A stretch of DNA of 64,000 nucleotides from Aeromonas enteropelogenes. Its GTDB lineage: Bacteria; Pseudomonadota; Gammaproteobacteria; Enterobacterales; Aeromonadaceae. This document shows positions 24,148-37,711 of the stretch, in pieces; within the stretch, counting starts at the first letter, position 1; every line of letters begins with the position of its first letter. The stretch covers positions 152,130-216,129 of the forward strand of contig NZ_CDCG01000026.1 of the NCBI RefSeq assembly GCF_000819845.1, in the 5' to 3' direction. A model generated the notes under the pieces. The model worked only from the letters and a program-made list of their open reading frames with translations, was not told where the DNA came from and searched no databases. Position numbers and translations under genes: made by a program.

Positions 24148-26102
24148 CGCGTCACCTCCGTGGTCGCTGCCCCCTGGCGGATTGAGCCGCCTTGTACGCC
24201 CCTCTGCAATTCAGGTTGTGGCTGTGTCTGTACCGAGAAGACGGGCCTCAGCACGGCGGGATCCGGTTGATTGTTGTGAAAATCATCCGGGTAGTAACCG
24301 AAGTTGTTCACCCCCTTGCTCCGGATGATCTGCATCCAGCGCGCCAGTTCGGCGTCGGGTATGGGTTGCTCGGTGCGCCAGTTGCGGCTCTGCAGCTCGA
24401 ACACCAGGCGATCGGCCGGCACCCGGGCTAGCGAATCCTCCGCCAGTCTGGCCAGCCACTCGTCGGGATTTTTCGCCTGCTCCATGTAGGGCATGGCCAT
24501 CACGGCGGTGTAGTCGTAAGCCTTGGCAAACGCGGCCATGCTCTGGGCAAACCACTGCTGGGACTCGGGCTCGGTCACCAGGGTCGCGTAGATGTTGCGG
24601 GCAGTCTTGAGGCCATCCGCGCCCCCCTGACGGTAACGGGCGGCGGCATCACGCAGCTCCATGGTGAAATCGATCAGCAGGTCGGTCTTGCGCTCTCCCT
24701 GTGCCTGCAGTGCCTCTGGGGTACGCTCCAGAGGGAAGGGGCCTTCGTAGTCGCTGAGGAAGGCGTCATCGTGGAACAGCAGGCCGTCGAACTTGGTGTA
24801 GAAGCCGAGATCCTCGTAGATATCCAGCAGGATCCGGCGGCTGGCCGGATCCCAGGGTGAGAGGCGCAGATACTGCCCCTTGGCCGGCGCACCGGTGCGG
24901 CTGTCGGTCACATAGGCATGGTTCGGCCCCATGTCGTAGGCCATCACCGGCATCCAGGCATACACCTTGACCCCGGCCCGGGTCTTGAGCTGCCAGGCCA
25001 CCCGGTTGAACAGATCCGCCTTGACCGGCATATGGCGATTGGGGAAGTAGAGCGCCTCCGCCACCCCATCACCGTTGTCATCGGCATAGGCCTGCAGATA
25101 GACGGTAGTGATGCCGTAGCCCTTGATCCTGTCCAGCAGCATGTCGATGTTTTTGTTCATCTGGCGGGGATCCGGGTCATAGACATAATCGAGATCCACG
25201 TGTACCAACCGCTCCACCTGCCGCTCCCAGGTATTGCCTCCCATGATCTCGTCCAGGGTCTCGAGACTGGTGTCCTCATCCAGCAGATAGCGACGCACTG
25301 TGCTGCCCGTGTCGTTCACCTTGTTGAGTCCTTCGGCCAGGGTGAAGGTGTAGGGCATGCCCGCCTCCCGGGCCAGATCCAGCGCCGTCTCGTTGAAGGC
25401 GCCATAGGGCCAGACCATGATGCGCGGCGCCTGCCCCGTCTGCTGCTTCAACTGGCGAGCCGATGCGTCGAAGTCGGCCTTCACCCGCGCCCGGTAAGCG
25501 GCCATGGACTCGTAACCCGCCTGGCTCCAGCCCGCCGTGGTCACCGCCGGTTGCACGTTGCCTTGCGGGTTGGCCAGCAGCCCGTAATGGGAAGCGAAGG
25601 TGTGGGAGGCGATCTCCACCAGCCCGGAGGCCTGCATCTCGCGGATCTGCGGCCAGTTGACGAAATAGCTGCGGGGCAGTTTGTCGTTGCCATAAGAAAC
25701 CATCTGGTCATCCGCCACTTCCAGCCAGCTGCCCACCAGCGCAAAAACGGCCGGATAGTTGTAAAGCTTGAGCAGGGGGTAAACCAGCCGGTAGAAACTC
25801 TCGTAACCATCGTCGAAGCTGAGCAGGATCGCCTTGTCCGGCAGCGGCGCCTTGCCCGCCCTGGCATCCAGCACCTGCTGGAAGCTGACCGGATGGTAGC
25901 CCTGCTGCTTGATCCAGTTGAAGTGGCGGATCAGGGTGTCGCGCCGGATCGTCTGGGGATAGAGCTTGAGGTTGGGGGTCAGCTTGAGATCGACGATGTC
26001 GTGATAGCAGAGCACCACGTAATCATCCGGTTTGCGGGCCGCCTGGGTGAGACCGGGCAGCAGGGTCAACAACAGAAAAAAAGGAGCAAGCCAGCGTCTC
26101 AT
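24144..26102 (-). CDS. pgaB: PNAG N-deacetylase
   Basis: 652 aa. The N-terminal polysaccharide deacetylase domain shows YHDIVD and SFDDGYES. The C-terminal glycoside-hydrolase-like domain (from about residue 310) includes HVDLDYVYDPDP and LLFHDDAFLSDYE. PgaB removes some acetyl groups during export. The chosen start is ATG at 26102 in a TGATG overlap with the pgaA stop, with GGAG 9 nt upstream. The signal peptide MRRWLAPFFLLLTLLPGLTQ lacks a lipobox cysteine, so this PgaB is predicted soluble, unlike the E. coli lipoprotein. Confidence 0.93.
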   Translation of the reverse strand: MRRWLAPFFLLLTLLPGLTQAARKPDDYVVLCYHDIVDLKLTPNLKLYPQTIRRDTLIRHFNWIKQQGYHPVSFQQVLDARAGKAPLPDKAILLSFDDGYESFYRLVYPLLKLYNYPAVFALVGSWLEVADDQMVSYGNDKLPRSYFVNWPQIREMQASGLVEIASHTFASHYGLLANPQGNVQPAVTTAGWSQAGYESMAAYRARVKADFDASARQLKQQTGQAPRIMVWPYGAFNETALDLAREAGMPYTFTLAEGLNKVNDTGSTVRRYLLDEDTSLETLDEIMGGNTWERQVERLVHVDLDYVYDPDPRQMNKNIDMLLDRIKGYGITTVYLQAYADDNGDGVAEALYFPNRHMPVKADLFNRVAWQLKTRAGVKVYAWMPVMAYDMGPNHAYVTDSRTGAPAKGQYLRLSPWDPASRRILLDIYEDLGFYTKFDGLLFHDDAFLSDYEGPFPLERTPEALQAQGERKTDLLIDFTMELRDAAARYRQGGADGLKTARNIYATLVTEPESQQWFAQSMAAFAKAYDYTAVMAMPYMEQAKNPDEWLARLAEDSLARVPADRLVFELQSRNWRTEQPIPDAELARWMQIIRSKGVNNFGYYPDDFHNNQPDPAVLRPVFSVQTQPQPELQRGVQGGSIRQGAATTEVTR

Positions 26103-28486
26103 CACATGAAACTCCATTGCAGATTGGCGAAGACAAAATTTCCATACTCGCGGTTGCCGTCGTAGACGGCCTGACGACGGCCCAGACCATAGCCAAGGCT
26201 CAATGCAGGTGAGAGCATCCAGTCATGGCGATAGCTGAGCTGCCAGCCCTGATCGCCGCCATAGCGCTCCTGCCAGTAGTGATTGCCGCTCATGGTGAGG
26301 CTTTGCAGCAGAGAGCGACGGCCATCCAGCGGCAAGCGGTAGCGCGCCGCCAGTTCCAGCTCCAGATTGCGATCACTCAAGGGGTTGAAGTAGTCCGCGT
26401 CCACCTCCTCGTTGCGGGAGGTGGCGGCCCGCAGGGTGCCGTCAAACCACCAGCGATCCCGGCGCCAGAGATCCTGGCGCAGCCAGCCGGAGGCAGTGAG
26501 CCGCCGGTTGCCATCATCGATGTCCATGCGTTCGAGACGCAGGCCGCCCTCACGGGTTTCGTCTTGGCGCCAGCCAAGATCCAGCAGGTATTGATCGGCG
26601 TAATGGCCCCGCGCCAGGGCCCGCAGCGGGGTGTCGGCGCTGTTGAAATTGACGGCGGCCCCCAGTTGCCACTGATCGTCCAGCCGCCAGTCGAGACGGC
26701 TCCACAGGTAGCCCTTGTGGTTAAGCTCACTGCCCGTGCCCCCTTCCAGGGTCAGCAGCAGCGGATAGAAGGAGAGTTCGGCCCCGACTCCGGTGTAGGC
26801 GGCTCTCTCCCCTTGCCCCTCATAGTCACCAAAGCTGCCCTGACGACGAACAAACAGACGATCACCACCATCACTACGGCCACTATAGAGACGGCTGTCA
26901 TAACGCCAGTCGCGACTGGCCTGCACCGAGCCTCCCTCGTTGCGGCCATGGGTCAGCTCGGTCGTGAGCATGGGTGCCTGCTCCAGAGCCAGCCGTTGTT
27001 GCAGCTCCTGACGATCCCGGGTCAGGTTGCCAAGGGCTCGCACCGCTTGTGGCGTCTGCTGCCACTCCCCCCGATCGAGCCGGGCATGGAGGCGACCCGG
27101 CTCGGCCTGCACCGTGCGTCCGGTTGGCAACCAGCGCATAGCCTCCCTGTAGGCCTGTTCGGCCCCGTCAGGATGACCGCGCCAGCGCCGGATATCCCCC
27201 AGTTGCAACCAGAGCCAGGGATTGGCCGGTGCGGTTTTCAGCCAGGATTCCAGCTGTGCCTCCGCCTCCCCGGCCTGACCACGCCAGGCCTGCAGCAGGG
27301 TTCTCAGTTGCAGTAGCTTCTCGTAGTCATCGTTGGCCATCCGCTGGTTGCCGGTAAAATCCCAGCGAGTCGCCGGTTCCTGCCAACCCGCCAGCAACGC
27401 CTGGGCGGCCTCGTAACGTTCCGCATCCGAATAGGCGTAGAAACGCTTCTCCAGCAATGTCTTGTCTCTGGCCCGTTCGGGAGTGGCCAGCCGGTCATAG
27501 AGCGCAGATGCCTCCGTCGCCCGCCCCAGCCCGGCCAGGGCATCGGCCCGCGCTTCGAGCAGATAATCCGGCAATGGCCCTTCTGCCTGCAAAGTGGCGG
27601 ACGCCTTTTCTGCTTGGGCAAACTCGCCGAGGGCGACCAGGGTCACCACCCGATCCCGCCGGGTGCTGAGGTAGAGCACATGATCGCGGGGAGCGCGCGC
27701 CAGGATCTTGTCCTGCAGCGCCAGGACCTGGGTCAGAGAGGTACGAACCTGGGCGGGATCCTCGATCTTGGATGACATCCGCAGCAGATTGACAGCCTGA
27801 TAGTAATCGAGCCAGAGCCTGTCCACCGGCTTGAACAGCGAGGGATAACGGGCCATCAATTCGCCGGCCGCAGGCCCGGCACCCAGCCCGACCGCCACCC
27901 GATAGAGCGCCAGCACCTGCTCGGCATTATCCGGCTCGAGTTCAAGCCACTGCTGATGCACCAGCAGTTCGCCCATGGCATCTTCCGCCTGGCGGGCGGC
28001 GTAGAGACGGGCATCAAGGATGGCGCGATCACGGCCGAAACGCTGTTCGTACTCGCTGGCCACCTGACGGGCCAACCTCTGGTTGCCCTGATCGCTGGCG
28101 GTGAGAAACAGCCCGAGCCAACCGTTGGGATTGGCGGGAGCGCGCCCCTGCAGGACGCGGTAGTAGCTGATTGCCTCCGGATAACGCTTCTCGTCCCGGG
28201 CGGCGCGGGCCACCTCTTCCAGCGTCTTGTTCGAGATGGGACTGAACTCGCAAGGTGTGCAGGCAGCCAGCGCCCCCTTGCGATCGCCATGCCAAAGCCG
28301 CACCGCGATCAAATCGTCGAGCACCTTGCCATCACCTGTCTGTCGATAAAGGGCATCCAGCCCCACTATGGCAGTCTCAAGCTCCCCCGCCCTGGCCTTG
28401 ATGACCCAGGCTTCGCGGGCGTTGTCCACCCCACCGGCCCATGCCAACGACGGCAGCAGCACCAGTAACCAAAAGATGCGATTCAT
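26102..28486 (-). CDS. pgaA: PNAG outer-membrane export porin
   Basis: About 794 aa. Signal peptide at the start (MNRIFWLLVLLPSLAWAGG), then a periplasmic TPR superhelix (to about residue 500) and a C-terminal 16-strand beta-barrel ending in NLQWSFM with a terminal aromatic. This matches PgaA, which guides deacetylated PNAG out of the cell. The ATG at 28486 gives the cleanest signal peptide but lacks a good ribosome site; in-frame ATGs at 28495 and 28504 are possible. First gene of pgaABCD, about 230 nt behind the inferred transcription start. Confidence 0.92.
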   Translation of the reverse strand: MNRIFWLLVLLPSLAWAGGVDNAREAWVIKARAGELETAIVGLDALYRQTGDGKVLDDLIAVRLWHGDRKGALAACTPCEFSPISNKTLEEVARAARDEKRYPEAISYYRVLQGRAPANPNGWLGLFLTASDQGNQRLARQVASEYEQRFGRDRAILDARLYAARQAEDAMGELLVHQQWLELEPDNAEQVLALYRVAVGLGAGPAAGELMARYPSLFKPVDRLWLDYYQAVNLLRMSSKIEDPAQVRTSLTQVLALQDKILARAPRDHVLYLSTRRDRVVTLVALGEFAQAEKASATLQAEGPLPDYLLEARADALAGLGRATEASALYDRLATPERARDKTLLEKRFYAYSDAERYEAAQALLAGWQEPATRWDFTGNQRMANDDYEKLLQLRTLLQAWRGQAGEAEAQLESWLKTAPANPWLWLQLGDIRRWRGHPDGAEQAYREAMRWLPTGRTVQAEPGRLHARLDRGEWQQTPQAVRALGNLTRDRQELQQRLALEQAPMLTTELTHGRNEGGSVQASRDWRYDSRLYSGRSDGGDRLFVRRQGSFGDYEGQGERAAYTGVGAELSFYPLLLTLEGGTGSELNHKGYLWSRLDWRLDDQWQLGAAVNFNSADTPLRALARGHYADQYLLDLGWRQDETREGGLRLERMDIDDGNRRLTASGWLRQDLWRRDRWWFDGTLRAATSRNEEVDADYFNPLSDRNLELELAARYRLPLDGRRSLLQSLTMSGNHYWQERYGGDQGWQLSYRHDWMLSPALSLGYGLGRRQAVYDGNREYGNFVFANLQWSFM

Positions 28487-28647
28487 TCGCAACATACCAC
28501 CCATAACAAACGCGGGTCGTATCGTCCTTGAACTCCCACACGGATATACACACGCGTCCGCTCTTGCCGGATGGGCAAGATGGCTTCCTGACCTGTGTGC
28601 TGATTTGAGGGTGAAAGGTGGGCAGCAAGACCGGCACCTTTCCTATG

Positions 28648-28715
28648 TGCGGCCCAGCCATCTCCGGGAGGAGACCTGTAACTTTCCGAACCCGATTCAC
28701 ATCGGGAGTGGCGAG
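28648..28715 (-). ncRNA. Conserved 68-nt leader element, copy A (upstream of pgaA)
   Basis: Ungapped identity of 64/68 with copy B at 33213-33280. On the minus strand it can form hairpin CCCGAT-GTGA-ATCGGG (GNRA loop), a single-stranded TTCGGAAAG region and hairpin TCTCC-TCCC-GGAGA. An outer GCCA/TGGC pairing would close a three-way junction. It starts at the predicted transcription start and leaves about 160 nt to pgaA. A further hairpin GAAAGGTG/CACCTTTC (28611-28645 region) follows. It does not fit GEMM-I, whose conserved GACGCAAAGCC is absent. Candidate riboswitch or protein-binding leader. Confidence 0.6.
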
Positions 28716-28721
28716 GACGAC

Positions 28722-28750
28722 AATTTTGATTCTGTAGAGAATTTAGTCAA
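28722..28750 (-). promoter_or_regulatory. Inferred promoter of pgaABCD
   Basis: On the minus strand TTGACT (28750-28745), a 17-bp spacer and AAAATT (28727-28722). The same hexamers with the same spacing precede copy B at the same distance from the leader element. The -10 is weak, hinting at activator dependence. Confidence 0.5.
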
Positions 28751-29288
28751 TCCGGGGGTGTAACGAATTTATGCTCATCGACGAGTCGTGGAGACATGCA
28801 AAACCACAAAATTCAGGAGGGAAAATAGAATTGGAGGAGGCAATTGATGTGCCAATTATAAGGGTTTTGCGGCTAATTCCCCTTTTATCATCACACTCAC
28901 CTGATTGACCGTTTTCCTCAGGAACCAAGATCGGGCCCAAACCAGCAATACGACACAAGTTGTCGTAATCGATGACCAGCATAATAACTGTCACATGCTT
29001 GGTTGAGTGACGCTCCTTTTTCGCCAGAAAAAATTAACTGACGAATAGCAAAAGAAAGTGTTCGTATCTTGTGGTCGCCAAGCCACGCAGATCATCAGAA
29101 CCTCTGAACGACAGAGACCGCTTCAACTTGCCGGCCTCTTGTCTCTCAAAACGGCTGTATCTTCAACGCGAGTCGAACAGACCCGGCAACGTGACAACAT
29201 CCATGACACTCAAACGGGACTCAATGGCCCCGTTCGTATTCTACTTTGCTCTTTTACTGGCTCTTTAATGCCTTTTTCGAACAGGACA
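28751..29288. other. 538-bp intergenic region between the two polysaccharide operons
   Basis: No recognisable gene. One minus-strand frame (28743-28994) would encode 83 residues starting MTVIMLVIDYDN, but it runs into the pga promoter and matches no family I know. A 7-bp inverted repeat TACGACA/TGTCGTA lies at 28949-28967 and could be an operator. I see no clear terminator for the operon ending at 29289. Confidence 0.5.
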
Positions 29289-30338
29289 TCAATCGAACAA
29301 GACAGTGACTGGCAACCCCTCAACTTGCAGATTGGCAGGGAGTTTCTCATCCAACGCCAGGGCCACCTTGAGGGTCGCCTTCTCTCCTTCAAACGGCGCA
29401 GCCAGCTGGGCTGGCAATTTGTCCGCCAGCTCCACCGGTCTGGCAATCCGTGCAGACAAACGCTCGCCACTCGGCAACTTGACGGTGGCTTTGTGTCCAG
29501 TTTCCATCGAGGTCAAGTACTTGGGTTGCACATAGGCGATGACCAGGGGATCCATATGTTTGGATATCAGCGCCAAAGGCGCGCCCGAGAAGACCCAGTC
29601 CCCTTCCTGCACCAGCACGTCAGACACCTTGCCGGTGGCCGGAGACAGGGGCTGTTGCTGTCGCATAATGGCTTCCATCTCGGTCAGCTCCTGCTCCAGC
29701 TGGTGGCGGGCGCTGGCCAGCGGTCCCGTCAGGTGATCCTCTTTGATCTGCAACTCTTGCTGCGTTTTTTCAGCCCTGGCCTTCTGCAGGTCGATGCGAG
29801 ATTGAGTCCAGCTCAGCAAAGCGCTGGCATATTCAGCGCTGGAAACCAGCTTTTCCTTCCTGTACCCAGCATACTCCTGATAGATCCCCTCCTGTTCACG
29901 AGTGCCCCGCTCGGCGATGCTGATCTGCTCGTCCAGATTGTTCAATATCGCCTGTTCGTCATTCCCCTTGTCCAGCTCAAGCGCTTTCAGACGAGCCTTG
30001 CGACCTTCAATGTTGGCCTTGAGCGACGGTGATTCGAAACGCATCAATGCATCACCTTGCGAGATGGATTGGCCGGGGGACATATAAATGCTGCGAATGA
30101 AACCATCACCATTGGCCACCACCAGCTGGGGTTCCGTCGTGATGATCGCTGGCGCCTGAGTCAGCCACCACTCTCGTCCAAGGTAGCCGAGCAAGATGAT
30201 GACCGGGCTGAATGCCAGCAGCAAGATCAGATACCAGCGAGCCTTGAACGCGATGCGCTTGGCAGGGGCATACAACACCCGGATCCCGTCATCCGAGGTA
30301 GCATCCTGCTTCTTGGGGGGATTGAATGTGACTTTCAT
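29289..30338 (-). CDS. HlyD-type periplasmic adaptor of the second exopolysaccharide operon
   Basis: 349 aa. One membrane helix (about residues 34-55) is followed by a biotinyl-lipoyl-like region (VVANGDGFIRSIYMSPGQSISQGDALMRFES), a coiled-coil hairpin (about 105-235) and the return half PATGKVSDVLVQEGDWVFSGAPL. It overlaps the glycosyltransferase stop by 1 bp (TGATG). In this setting it resembles Alg44/HlyD-like partners of membrane polysaccharide synthases rather than a drug efflux adaptor; that role is inferred from context. Confidence 0.78.
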   Translation of the reverse strand: MKVTFNPPKKQDATSDDGIRVLYAPAKRIAFKARWYLILLLAFSPVIILLGYLGREWWLTQAPAIITTEPQLVVANGDGFIRSIYMSPGQSISQGDALMRFESPSLKANIEGRKARLKALELDKGNDEQAILNNLDEQISIAERGTREQEGIYQEYAGYRKEKLVSSAEYASALLSWTQSRIDLQKARAEKTQQELQIKEDHLTGPLASARHQLEQELTEMEAIMRQQQPLSPATGKVSDVLVQEGDWVFSGAPLALISKHMDPLVIAYVQPKYLTSMETGHKATVKLPSGERLSARIARPVELADKLPAQLAAPFEGEKATLKVALALDEKLPANLQVEGLPVTVLFD

Positions 30339-31678
30339 CAGAATTTATTTCCTCGTTTTAATACCCACCAGGGCGCCATGCTGCTCTCTTCATGACCACG
30401 CCGGAATATTTCATTGAGTAGAGCCACGGCGCACCACAAGCGCATCAGCAAGGTATATACCGGGTACAGCAACAACCATGGCAGCATGTACAGATCTGCT
30501 TTGGGCCGCTCCGAGATGGCGAGCAGAAACACCAAAAAATTGACCAGAGTAAGAAACAGATAGACCAGATAGAGACATAACATCAGGGCTGTCACGAACG
30601 GGCCCGGATAACTGAGCACCAGCCACCAGCTGTATCCCATCACCAGCAGCGGCAGCACCACGTTTTGCGCCACGCCGTAAATCAAGGTAAACAGAAAGGT
30701 CTTCCAACCCAGGATGCGTGGAGTCAGCGACAACTTGTGCTTGCGCAGGTAGAGAAACAGCAGATCCCCATCCCAGCGCAGACGCTGGTTGGCCAAGGTC
30801 ATCAGATCCGCAGGGGCATCCGTGTGGCCTATGGCCCTGGGAGCAAACCCTATCTTCAGATTGGGGTGACGCTTGAGGTAATGTTTGATCCTCACCGTCA
30901 GATCCAGATCTTCCGCAGTGTGGGTATCCCAGCCGCCGATCTGGCGCAAAAAATCGCGGCGAAATGCCCCGAACGCACCGGAAATGTTATTGATCAGGTT
31001 CCATTCGCTCAGGCCCGTCTTCCCCCCCTGCATGGAGATCATGTACTCGATCCCCTGCATGCGAGTGATCAGGCCATCGCGCAAGTTGCGCACTCTCAGC
31101 GCCCCGCCGACGGCCGGCACGTTCGGATCATCGAAACAGGCCACAATCTCGTCGATCATGTTGTTGTCGAAGGAGGTGTCCCCGTCGGCATTCATGACTA
31201 TTTCACCGGTTGCCGCCGACAACCCGGCATTGAGGGTCGATACCCGCCCACCACGCTGCCACTTGGGCAGCAGCACCAGGGTTCGCGTCTCGCATCCCTG
31301 GAACTCGGCGACGCAGTTCAAGGCTGCCTGATAGGTATGGGCGTTGGCCTTGGCACCATCGATCACCGCAATGATCTCCAGATGACCACGATAAAGCTGC
31401 TCCTTGAGGGTCAGGATGGTCGAGCGGATCGCCTCCCCCTCCCCGTAGCAGGTGATGATGCAGGAGACTTTGGGACAACGGCGTGATAGCGGCAGATCCG
31501 ACGCCTTGGGTACCTGACGGGAAAACCATTTTAGGATCCCGGTCAGGGTCAGCGCCATCAGTGGTACTTCCATCAACAGCAACATGGGTAGCAGCAACAG
31601 GATCATCCTGGGTGAAAACTGCAGACTGCCCAGGATCTCGGTCAGGATGTAACGGACCGTACTCATCCACTCAGGCAT
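30338..31678 (-). CDS. Membrane GT2 glycosyltransferase, second exopolysaccharide synthase
   Basis: 446 aa. N-terminal membrane helices (about 12-50), a GT-A domain with MNADGDTSFD (Asp-165, Asp-167), TAEDLDL (Glu-256, Asp-257) and QRLRW (298-302), then four C-terminal helices. The full catalytic set is present, so it should be a processive synthase of the PgaC/BcsA/hyaluronan-synthase class. It differs clearly from the neighbouring PgaC. The ATG at 31678 overlaps the upstream stop by 8 bp and has GGAG 8 nt before it. The sugar is unknown. Confidence 0.83.
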   Translation of the reverse strand: MPEWMSTVRYILTEILGSLQFSPRMILLLLPMLLLMEVPLMALTLTGILKWFSRQVPKASDLPLSRRCPKVSCIITCYGEGEAIRSTILTLKEQLYRGHLEIIAVIDGAKANAHTYQAALNCVAEFQGCETRTLVLLPKWQRGGRVSTLNAGLSAATGEIVMNADGDTSFDNNMIDEIVACFDDPNVPAVGGALRVRNLRDGLITRMQGIEYMISMQGGKTGLSEWNLINNISGAFGAFRRDFLRQIGGWDTHTAEDLDLTVRIKHYLKRHPNLKIGFAPRAIGHTDAPADLMTLANQRLRWDGDLLFLYLRKHKLSLTPRILGWKTFLFTLIYGVAQNVVLPLLVMGYSWWLVLSYPGPFVTALMLCLYLVYLFLTLVNFLVFLLAISERPKADLYMLPWLLLYPVYTLLMRLWCAVALLNEIFRRGHEESSMAPWWVLKRGNKF

Positions 31679-33014
31679 CCTGGAGGCTCCCATCCAGCCA
31701 GCGACTCAACCATAGACTGATATCTTCACCCAGCGTGGTAGGCAACGGCTCTACCTTCACATTCAGCGTCAGGGCATCCAGACCCTCGACATTGTTGAGC
31801 GCCAGGATCCGCCCCTGCAGGATCTGCCAATCCTCCACATTGGTGTGTGGCAACAGCAGTAACAACTGATCGTCGGCATACTGGCAAACCACATCGGTAT
31901 CCCGAAACAGCGCCTGCAGACGAGCCAGCAAGGCCCCCAGTCGCTGCTGGGTTTTCAACAGTCCCAACTCGGCTCGCAGTTCGGCAAGATGTTCAACCCG
32001 GATTGCCAGCAGGGTATGGCTGCCACCATGACGTTGCAGTAGACGATTGCTCCATTGCAGCAGCCAGGGAAAGTGATCCATGGCCATAGGCGCCCCCCAG
32101 GTCAGGGGAAGATGCAACTGTTGGGTACCCTCGCGGGCAATATGGCGAGCCAGCTTGCCAATGCGGTACTCATAGATGGGAGATACCACCAGATCATCTG
32201 GCTTGTGGGCCTGACCACACTCGTGGCATCGAGCCTGTACTGCCGCCTCCATGAAACGGGCATGGCAGGAGAGGCAGCGGTACTTCTCCAGCGGCCTGTC
32301 GTAGTCTACCCCGATATGACGCAGGGTCGTCACGCACTTGGGGCAACGCAGCACACCCTGTTGCATGAAGGCATCCTGATCATCCACATGACCGCAGGTG
32401 AAGCAGTGCACCGCAGGCTTGGCCTGGATGGCGATATGGGAGCATTCCGGACACACGTCGACAAAATTGAGGTGGGCCGAGTTGCAGCTGTTGCACAGGC
32501 GCACCCGATCGACCAGTTGTTCGCTCTGCAGCAATCGTTCGGAGACCAATTGCGGCAAGGATGTCCCGGCATCGGCACCCAGCAAACAATCCAGCAACGG
32601 ATAGCTGTACCCCTGGCGACAGCCCGCCTGCCAGCGGGGCAATAGACGGAAATGGGCACGGGGCCAGCTGTACCAGGCCAGCTTTTCCATGTCATCGGGG
32701 TGTTCGCGCGGAGTCAGCAGTGCCAGCCGCTCCAGCATGTCAGGAACTCGCTCATCCAGCTGGGACGCCAAACCATCTGCCAGCATGGGCGAAAGCGGAC
32801 TCTTCTCTACGCAAAACACCGGATAAAGATAACGGGAAGGATCACGACGGATTGCCAGCAAGATCCGATCCTGCTCTTCACTTGGCAAGTTGAGCAGCAA
32901 TACCGGCTGTAATGCTGTCTGCCACTGGGACAAATCATCGAGAGACTGGGTGTTTCGCTCTACCGGCGCCCCCAACAGGGATATCTGGCAGAGTTGTTCA
33001 CTTGTGCTCGTCAT
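31671..33014 (-). CDS. Zinc-ribbon (TackOD1-like) protein with degenerate GGDEF domain
   Basis: 447 aa, cytoplasmic. The central region has six CxxC pairs (Cys-174/177, 188/191, 204/207, 224/227, 247/250, 263/266), enough for three zinc sites, and resembles the TackOD1 output domain. The C-terminal part (about 315-440) looks like a GGDEF fold, but the signature is replaced by ADDQL before LLLLP, so cyclase activity is unlikely. The N-terminal ~150 residues are unassigned. First gene of a three-gene operon with a membrane glycosyltransferase, so it probably regulates polymer synthesis. The start at 33014 has AGAGG upstream. Confidence 0.7.
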   Translation of the reverse strand: MTSTSEQLCQISLLGAPVERNTQSLDDLSQWQTALQPVLLLNLPSEEQDRILLAIRRDPSRYLYPVFCVEKSPLSPMLADGLASQLDERVPDMLERLALLTPREHPDDMEKLAWYSWPRAHFRLLPRWQAGCRQGYSYPLLDCLLGADAGTSLPQLVSERLLQSEQLVDRVRLCNSCNSAHLNFVDVCPECSHIAIQAKPAVHCFTCGHVDDQDAFMQQGVLRCPKCVTTLRHIGVDYDRPLEKYRCLSCHARFMEAAVQARCHECGQAHKPDDLVVSPIYEYRIGKLARHIAREGTQQLHLPLTWGAPMAMDHFPWLLQWSNRLLQRHGGSHTLLAIRVEHLAELRAELGLLKTQQRLGALLARLQALFRDTDVVCQYADDQLLLLLPHTNVEDWQILQGRILALNNVEGLDALTLNVKVEPLPTTLGEDISLWLSRWLDGSLQDA

Positions 33015-33212
33015 GGGGAGATTACCTCTTTCCACAGGCAAAAACAGAGACGGCCCAGTGGGCCAATGTTCAGTACCAACCGGAATGGGAAAAGCGACAT
33101 ACGCATTTCTCATCATTGTCGATACCAACGACGCGGTCGACGAAAGCGACCCATGTTATGGATATGGTAGGAGCAGGAGGATAATCAACAATGACCAGTG
33201 CCATATTCCATA
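33015..33212 (-). other. Remainder of the leader between copy B and the zinc-ribbon gene
   Basis: About 200 nt of untranslated leader. Just after copy B it can fold GTGCC...GGCAC with a nested ATAT stem and a GGA loop. Several GGA triplets occur here and in the pgaA leader, the type of site bound by CsrA/RsmA. Confidence 0.4.
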
Positions 33213-33280
33213 TGCGGCACAGCCATCTCCGGGAGGAGATCTGTAGCTTTCCGAACCCGATTCACATCGGGGGTGGCGAG
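33213..33280 (-). ncRNA. Conserved 68-nt leader element, copy B (upstream of the second exopolysaccharide operon)
   Basis: Matches copy A at 64 of 68 positions without gaps. The hairpin with GTGA loop, the TTCGGAAAG linker and the TCTCC/GGAGA hairpin are unchanged. The four differences fall outside the two hairpin stems. It starts at the predicted transcription start, as in copy A, and is about 200 nt from the first gene. The sequence beyond the element differs completely between the two leaders, so the match is not a simple recent duplication of the whole upstream region. Confidence 0.6.
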
Positions 33281-33286
33281 AGCGAT

Positions 33287-33315
33287 AATTTTGCCAAAGT
33301 ATAATAATTAGTCAA
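33287..33315 (-). promoter_or_regulatory. Inferred promoter of the second exopolysaccharide operon
   Basis: On the minus strand TTGACT (33315-33310), a 17-bp spacer and AAAATT (33292-33287), identical hexamers and spacing to the pga promoter while the spacer itself differs. Confidence 0.5.
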
Positions 33316-37548: not shown

Positions 37549-37570
37549 CCATGACCCTTTCTGTAGTCAT

Positions 37571-37645
37571 TTGGCAAACTGGCTGAAAAGTCAGGACGCA
37601 AAACTTCCGGTCTAAAGACGTTCGTCCAGGATAGCGGGGTTGCCA
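37571..37645 (+). ncRNA. c-di-GMP-I (GEMM) riboswitch upstream of gbpA
   Basis: The leader has the GEMM-I core in order: TTGGCAA (P1 5' side), CTGGCT-GAAA-AGTCAG hairpin with GNRA loop, GGACGCAAAACTTCCGGTCT, the P3 hairpin, then GGATAGCGGGGTTGCCA closing P1. Vibrio cholerae gbpA is known to carry the same class (Vc1). The gbpA start codon lies about 65 nt downstream, so c-di-GMP would control GbpA adhesin/LPMO expression. Confidence 0.9.
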
Positions 37646-37711
37646 CACTCAGGTGTGCCCGGGGATTCCCCTGCCAACGTGACTGCCCACATCTATCGAC
37701 CAGAGGAATGT

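Follow-up and report, generated by a model that had tools for sequence, protein, structure and literature searches.

Near-identical leaders of two Aeromonas polysaccharide operons probably carry a divergent class-I c-di-GMP riboswitch aptamer

Two neighbouring polysaccharide operons of Aeromonas enteropelogenes begin with near-identical leader elements, and we conclude that this repeat is probably (at about 0.78) a divergent class-I riboswitch aptamer for cyclic di-guanosine monophosphate (c-di-GMP), of type II, with a GYRA loop. The copies lie in a 64,000-nucleotide stretch of contig NZ_CDCG01000026.1, which we call the window: copy A precedes pgaA, the first gene of the poly-N-acetylglucosamine (PNAG) operon, and copy B precedes a second operon whose first open reading frame we call ORF1. 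The element is homologous to the c-di-GMP-I family, though not a strict Rfam member by score. Its ligand is very probably c-di-GMP, judging by its clan match and conserved contact bases, in line with a first-pass annotation that had proposed c-di-GMP sensing as one possibility.

The repeated element and its class

The copies at 28648-28715 and 33213-33280, both in intergenic leaders on the minus strand and 4,565 bases apart, are identical at 64 of 68 positions in a direct, ungapped alignment, with mismatches at 28654, 28675, 28681 and 28707. By comparison, the best 68-mer match between shuffled leader regions never exceeded 36 in 100 shuffles. The first-pass annotation had reported this match, and it had also correctly observed that both hairpins are the same in the two copies on the sense RNA and that the promoter spacers and the rest of the leaders differ: identity outside the repeat is only 23/35 upstream in the sense direction (over the promoter) and 19/68 downstream. 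As delimited by Rfam, the whole element is slightly wider than 68 nucleotides:

28644..28721, minus strand: copy A, c-di-GMP-I-like aptamer in the pgaA leader (RF03167 match, homologue covariation, invariant contacts)
28712, 28685 and 28649, minus strand: predicted ligand contacts of copy A, G (Vc2 G20), A (A47) and C (C92), from Rfam-aligned columns
33209..33286, minus strand: copy B, c-di-GMP-I-like aptamer in the second-operon leader (RF03167 and RF01051 matches)
33277, 33250 and 33214, minus strand: predicted ligand contacts of copy B, G (G20), A (A47) and C (C92), from Rfam-aligned columns
28723..28750, minus strand: promoter-like TTGACT-16-CAAAAT 5' of copy A (promoter-pattern scan)
33288..33315, minus strand: promoter-like TTGACT-16-CAAAAT 5' of copy B (promoter-pattern scan)

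The assignment of Vc2 numbers to model positions is in part our assumption, as are the numbers C44 and G83 used below for an interhelical pair. The promoter-pattern scan returned 8 sites in the stretch against 3.5 expected from shuffling. Counted by eye, TTGACT is present in 18 of the 20 rows of an alignment of Aeromonas homologues (A2, described below), L063 and L064 being the rows without it. Each element lies just 3' of its TTGACT-16-CAAAAT, and the predicted transcription start falls a few bases before G20, which agrees with the earlier placement of each element at an inferred start. We rejected the plus strand as the sense strand, as both operons lie on the minus strand and the promoter-like sites are placed to suit it; the plus strand also has promoter-like sites inside the element (33261-33289 and 28696-28724).

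In the window, Rfam's curated cut-offs are passed only by the canonical c-di-GMP-I riboswitch before gbpA (37563-37647, plus strand, 73.5 bits); three more copies over the cut-off lie elsewhere in the genome. In a search with an E-value threshold, both leader copies matched RF03167 (c-di-GMP-I-GGC), a model of the c-di-GMP-I clan and the best-scoring Rfam model for each, from end to end (positions 1-80 of 80): copy A with 32.1 bits (E 8.6e-6) and copy B with 34.4 bits (E 2.4e-5), against a gathering cut-off of 59 bits. Across 17 Aeromonas loci, 16 matched the same model with 30.0 to 43.2 bits, again under its cut-off of 59, and L062 did not match. The cut-off of RF01051 (c-di-GMP-I, GEMM-I; 35 bits) is passed by three Aeromonas homologues, two of a wecB type (40.0 and 37.1 bits) and one of the second-operon type (38.0 bits). 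These homologues and the end-to-end clan matches contradict the earlier view that the core belongs to no named RNA class, and the whole-model matches, with G20, A47 and C92 kept, likewise contradict the reported absence of a GEMM-I signature; Rfam does place both copies in the clan, below its curated cut-offs. The family was missed because J1/2 and P1b differ from those of canonical copies.

Homologues were collected in several ways. A DNA search gave matches in 17 of 75 genomes of the family, 16 of them of the same genus, and a pattern scan of named genomes, which may not include records closely related to that of the window, gave 14 stretches, all Aeromonas. A covariance model of the subtype (R1), built from 20 Aeromonas copies, then matched 23 times, in 17 of the 37 genomes of the genus. 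Sorted by tblastn, by position and by the reading frame downstream, the matches comprise 11 ahead of pgaA, 8 ahead of ORF1 (of which the one in G015 is degenerate), 3 ahead of a wecB-like gene and a canonical riboswitch (G017, 63.0 bits with RF01051). Across the order, R1 matched in 33 of 394 genomes under strict filters, with scores of 26.5 to 63.7 bits outside the family and 79.2 to 99.6 for intact genus copies. Three far homologues from other families of the order scored 49.1, 56.8 and 60.5 bits with RF03167, the last over the cut-off of 59, and 6-7 far matches precede large repeat proteins that look adhesin-like by eye. Alignment A2 has 20 rows, 19 of them distinct (L055 is identical to L054 and is counted once); outside it are the degenerate copy L062, a 35-nucleotide fragment from another genus (L059) and the second G031 copy. 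L062, on contig C24 of G015, has a broken P2 and no TTGACT site and stands before an apparently intact ORF1; it was also excluded from the second-operon alignment, A5.

The homologues show covariation in stems P2 and P3. On A2, the GEMM-I helices P1b, P2 and P3 pair in 99.4% of cells, and 6 of 19 pairs are changed on both sides, which 7 of 500 shuffles do as well; the covariation score was reached by none of 500 shuffles, a comparison in which related rows can exceed shuffles without structure. The structure tested was the family fold with two inner P3 pairs (columns 47-58 and 48-57) added after the rows had been viewed, and it leaves out P1 and the outermost P3 pair; slid by one column, it pairs in at most 47.9% of cells. 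RNAalifold recovered the same GEMM-I fold unaided from 11 pga leaders, and in 7 second-operon leaders an antiaptamer replaced the lower part of P3. The first-pass annotation had suggested a GCCA/TGGC helix that could close a three-way junction. We rejected it: 88.2% of its cells are paired, and of its four pairs one is broken in 6 and another in 3 of the 19 distinct rows. The covarying fold is instead GEMM-I P2/P3.

The equivalents of G20, A47 and C92 are invariant in 20 of 20 rows at Rfam-aligned columns. At the interhelical C44-G83 pair, C is kept in 19 of 20 rows and G in all 20, and the tetraloop reads GYRA throughout (GUGA in 15, GCGA in 5). In Vc2, G20, A47 and C92 contact c-di-GMP, and the interhelical pair is described as universally conserved (PMC4744006); a GYRA loop defines type II c-di-GMP-I riboswitches (PMC11218506). 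The only aptamer of the 20 without the conserved C44 is L048, in G027, where ORF1 is found in several tblastn pieces; operon and riboswitch may be decaying together there.

A wholly new class of cis-regulatory RNA, as first proposed for the joint control of PNAG and a second polymer, would fit the failure of both window copies to reach gathering scores. It is nonetheless very improbable, given end-to-end clan matches with significant E-values, homologues over the cut-off and a conserved ligand triad; the three homologues over the RF01051 cut-off and the full-length clan matches largely refute it. What stands of that proposal is a structured, cis-acting RNA with covarying stems and operon linkage. 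That the element acts as DNA, as a protein-binding repeat or a mobile element, is scarcely credible either: the near-identical direct repeat beside promoter-like sites would suit it, but the stems carry compensatory changes, the core pattern (up to three mismatches) occurs only twice in the element's own genome, and 22 of the 23 genus model matches head polysaccharide genes, the remaining one being a canonical riboswitch.

Polysaccharide cassettes behind a shared head

The operons behind the two copies comprise the following genes:

26102..28495, minus strand: pgaA, likely start a conserved ATG at 28495 (PgaA, 866 bits against an NCBIfam cut-off of 367)
26117-24144, minus strand: pgaB (Pfam domains)
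24147-22897, minus strand: pgaC (PgaC, 647 bits against an NCBIfam cut-off of 422.3)
31671..33014, minus strand: ORF1, with a TackOD1 and a GGDEF-like domain (Pfam), likely start ATG 33014, not 33128
30338..31693, minus strand: family-2 glycosyltransferase, distantly PgaC-like (Pfam; TIGR03937 128.3 bits, below the cut-off of 422.3)
29289..30338, minus strand: HlyD-like membrane-fusion protein of the second operon (Pfam)

The reading frame after pgaC (22958-22596) had no Pfam match, and pgaD was not confirmed there. The start of ORF1 at 33014 is a conserved ATG with AGAGG upstream. Its GGDEF signature appears to read YADDQ; judged against what we take to be the GGDEF consensus, the domain looks degenerate and is probably not catalytic. 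It is possible that the operon of TackOD1-GGDEF protein, glycosyltransferase and HlyD-like protein makes a new polymer under c-di-GMP control. In the excerpts of the literature searched, the name TackOD1 occurred only for archaeal two-component systems.

In the 37 genus genomes, pgaA is present in 11, with the element just before it in all 11; ORF1 is present in 8 (broken in G027, twice in G015), with the element before it in 7. A third cassette, with a wecB-like gene behind the element, occurs at L129 (G031), L128 (G016) and L064 (G007). Its protein families were scanned in G031 only, where wecB scored 385 bits (cut-off 210) and NfrB 1198 bits (cut-off 1170), the NCBIfam name of the latter being a c-di-GMP-activated glycosyltransferase; an NfrA-like protein there has the Pfam domain NfrA_C and missed the NCBIfam phage-receptor cut-off (565 against 1223). 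G016 and G007 have the wecB-like gene, and in G016 the following frames are similar as well. In E. coli, a c-di-GMP-controlled, NfrB-related polysaccharide has been described (PMC8669469, PMC8669472).

Pairwise comparison of loci placed the boundaries of homology at the aptamer. The second-operon locus L045 shares unbroken homology with the pga loci L046 and L044 through an M3 peptidase gene, the promoter and the aptamer, and this homology stops within about 10 bases of C92. L043 carries the same cargo as L045; the two share the peptidase gene, differ in the stretch that follows it, and are homologous again from the aptamer onwards. Likewise, L049 (pga) and L050 (second operon) have everything in common up to the end of the aptamer, and the pga loci L049 and L044 are homologous throughout. 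By nearest-neighbour identity over the aptamer, with L049 left out of account, L045 stands at 96-97% with two pga leaders, and none of the other leaders compared exceeds 88%. Where a genome has two cassettes, they stand in tandem and each has a head of its own, in the order M3 peptidase, ORF1 operon, pga in the window; wecB cassette, pga in G016; and wecB cassette, ORF1 operon in G031.

These boundaries suggest that one promoter-aptamer head stands in front of several kinds of polysaccharide cassette at a single locus, and that recombination between heads would leave near-identical copies beside differing flanks. Deletion or exchange of cassettes by such recombination is the simplest account of the sequences, and it would offer a plain reason for near-identical leaders next to unrelated flanks.

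Proposed switching, its probable direction and the missing P1 helix

Downstream of each aptamer, a segment can pair with the 3' strand of P3:

28628..28655, minus strand: candidate antiaptamer of copy A, 28655-28647 (P3 3' strand, C92 and two bases after it) with 28637-28628; 9 of 9 pairs form around one bulge, a result equalled by 0 of 500 shuffles
33193..33224, minus strand: candidate antiaptamer of copy B, 33224-33215 (P3 3' strand to the base before C92) with 33203-33193; 9 of 10 pairs standard
28613..28642, minus strand: downstream hairpin overlapping the antiaptamer of copy A, 28642-28635 with 28620-28613 (11 pga leaders)

For the 7 second-operon leaders, RNAalifold preferred pairing of the P3 3' strand with a segment 12 columns further on over the lower part of P3, and this antiaptamer pairs in 98.6% of cells. 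The pga antiaptamer has a different sequence at the same place in 7 of 11 leaders; 62 of 63 cells pair, and in two pairs both bases differ between two groups of rows (0 to 27 of 500 shuffles as good). The hairpin downstream in the 11 pga leaders pairs in 98.9% of cells, with two of its eight pairs changed on both sides; a comparable but weaker hairpin in the second-operon leaders forms 5 to 8 of 8 pairs per row. As read from sequence, the layout would be the usual arrangement of aptamer and antiaptamer. Binding of c-di-GMP at G20, A47 and C92 would hold P3 closed and, in pga leaders, allow the second hairpin to form just downstream; without ligand, the P3 3' strand, together with C92 in pga leaders, would pair with the antiaptamer and so exclude both the closed P3 and the hairpin.

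We think that the switch is probably ON, so that high c-di-GMP would raise expression of the polysaccharide operons, perhaps through Rho, translation or RNA stability. We infer this direction from analogy and physiology. Vc1, which precedes gbpA in Vibrio, is a riboswitch that turns expression ON and has no recognisable terminator (PMC4744006), and PNAG synthesis is activated by and dependent on c-di-GMP (PMC8461298, PMC12564702), with PgaCD as the site of its action (PMC8461298). An OFF switch built on the same riboswitch, lowering expression at high c-di-GMP, is unlikely, though worth serious consideration. Among homologous GEMM-I aptamers there are both ON and OFF switches (PMC9262584), Vc2 itself is called a translational OFF switch in one paper (PMC9262584) but a gene-on switch in another (PMC12564702), and the output of the expression platform is not readable from sequence. 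The ON behaviour of Vc1 and the rise of PNAG synthesis with c-di-GMP in those same papers argue the other way.

Several observations weigh against an assignment to functional class-I riboswitches that switch in this manner. Both window copies fall under the curated cut-offs of RF03167 and RF01051: copy B reaches 34.0 bits with RF01051 against the required 35, copy A is not listed with that model even at E <= 10, and only 5 of the 22 genus subtype copies are listed at E <= 1. Single-sequence folding gives no support to either copy (the minus strand gave z of -0.33 and -1.80 as 68-mers and of -0.38 and -1.01 as 86-mers, the plus strand -0.79 and -2.26); because the plus strand folds equally well or better, we regard these energies as uninformative. 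G013 has the second operon and no element found by the subtype model. Covariation of the second-operon antiaptamer is weak, with one pair changed on both sides and 147 of 500 shuffles doing as well, and the antiaptamer segment is missing from 4 of the 11 pga leaders, where the best alternatives are matched by 35-396 of 500 shuffles. A terminator scan (6 matches against 4.3 in shuffles) found no intrinsic terminator between copy A and pgaA; its terminator-like matches include 28491-28477, over the first pgaA codons, and 33065-33051 in the second leader. The ON direction, finally, is drawn from physiology and analogy.

Two of these items have further detail. In G013 (L123), by our reading, the second operon follows a trpA-like gene, with the same cargo under different control. 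The match at 33065-33051 on the minus strand is a GC-rich terminator-like hairpin about 40 bases before ORF1; by eye, several homologous leaders seem to have such a stem too, with a different sequence.

A further point against the riboswitch assignment is that no P1 helix is detectable in the canonical register in the 20 Aeromonas copies: they average 1.75 of 5 pairs, near chance, and shuffles match the length of their best complementary run (217 of 300 do so). The 20 far homologues average 3.5 of 5 pairs, with a run matched by 12 of 300 shuffles, although 7 or more of them are near-duplicates; L075, a far match inside a reading frame, was excluded from this comparison. P1 in another register, or pairing of AGG with a 5' CCU, was rejected as not conserved among homologues. 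As the predicted start lies only a few bases before G20, little RNA would be left for P1. L076, L079-L082, L092 and L093, all from other families of the order, have 3-4 of 5 possible P1 pairs in or beside the canonical register, and the genes behind them encode large repeat proteins similar to RTX adhesins, though for L093 this is less clear. Vc2 is reported to lose c-di-GMP binding without P1, yet Cd1 binds c-di-GMP with no P1 detected by nuclear magnetic resonance (NMR; PMC9262584), so the absence is notable but has precedent.

The element could instead be related to the c-di-GMP-I fold but bind another cyclic dinucleotide, or no ligand at all, and be kept as a structured leader or protein site. 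This would accord with the low Rfam scores, the absent P1, and a J1/2 and P1b unlike those of canonical copies. We consider this improbable. Sensors of cyclic GMP-AMP (cGAMP) are marked by a changed base at position 20, and no such change is seen; none of the three contact bases varies in the 20 rows, and the stems covary. The cargo points the same way, since PNAG synthesis is c-di-GMP-dependent (PMC8461298), NfrB is named as c-di-GMP-activated and ORF1 has a GGDEF-like domain. Within the preferred class-I reading, we propose only tentatively, at rather less than even odds, a natural subclass without P1 that switches by the opening of P3 instead, serving as the shared, recombining head of an array of c-di-GMP-dependent polysaccharide operons (PNAG, NfrB-type glycan and TackOD1-GGDEF type) that are lost or exchanged behind one promoter-aptamer.

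Comparison with known systems

Although the riboswitch class is known, the subclass is new, as are its lack of P1, its PNAG, wecB-NfrB and TackOD1 cassettes, and its role at a junction. Riboswitches for c-di-GMP in Aeromonas hydrophila precede putative fimbrial and chitinase genes (PMC6366702). In the literature searched, as represented by excerpts, there was no report of a c-di-GMP-I riboswitch at PNAG operons; the original GEMM and variant-class papers lie outside that coverage, and an earlier listing there is possible. If our reading is right, the known class extends to PNAG operons through a conserved subclass that Rfam cut-offs miss, and c-di-GMP would control these polymers at two levels, the leader RNA and the synthase (PgaCD, and NfrB by its name). 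A natural aptamer without P1 would also test the need for this helix, which is reported as essential in Vc2 and undetected in Cd1 (PMC9262584).

Compared with type II members of RF01051, the window element has the same P2 and P3, GYRA tetraloop, G20/A47/C92 triad, C44 with its facing G, leader position and association with biofilm genes; it differs in having no detectable P1, a first P1b pair that is C-G and not G-C, and a J1/2 that is not A-rich. It departs from RF03167 at the A47 position, where the model has G and the element A; the family name c-di-GMP-I-GGC presumably denotes these bases. A close parallel is Vc1 of V. cholerae gbpA, an ON switch in which, as predicted for the leaders described here, the aptamer lies at the transcription start, ahead of a long leader with no evident terminator or anti-Shine-Dalgarno sequence (PMC4744006). 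Unlike these leaders, Vc1 controls an adhesin, and before gbpA the window carries a separate canonical copy. Cd1 of C. difficile acts through a terminator, of which none was found between copy A and pgaA. It belongs to another bacterial phylum and controls other genes, but parallels the Aeromonas element in that no P1 helix is detected, in Cd1 by NMR, although Cd1 binds c-di-GMP (PMC9262584).

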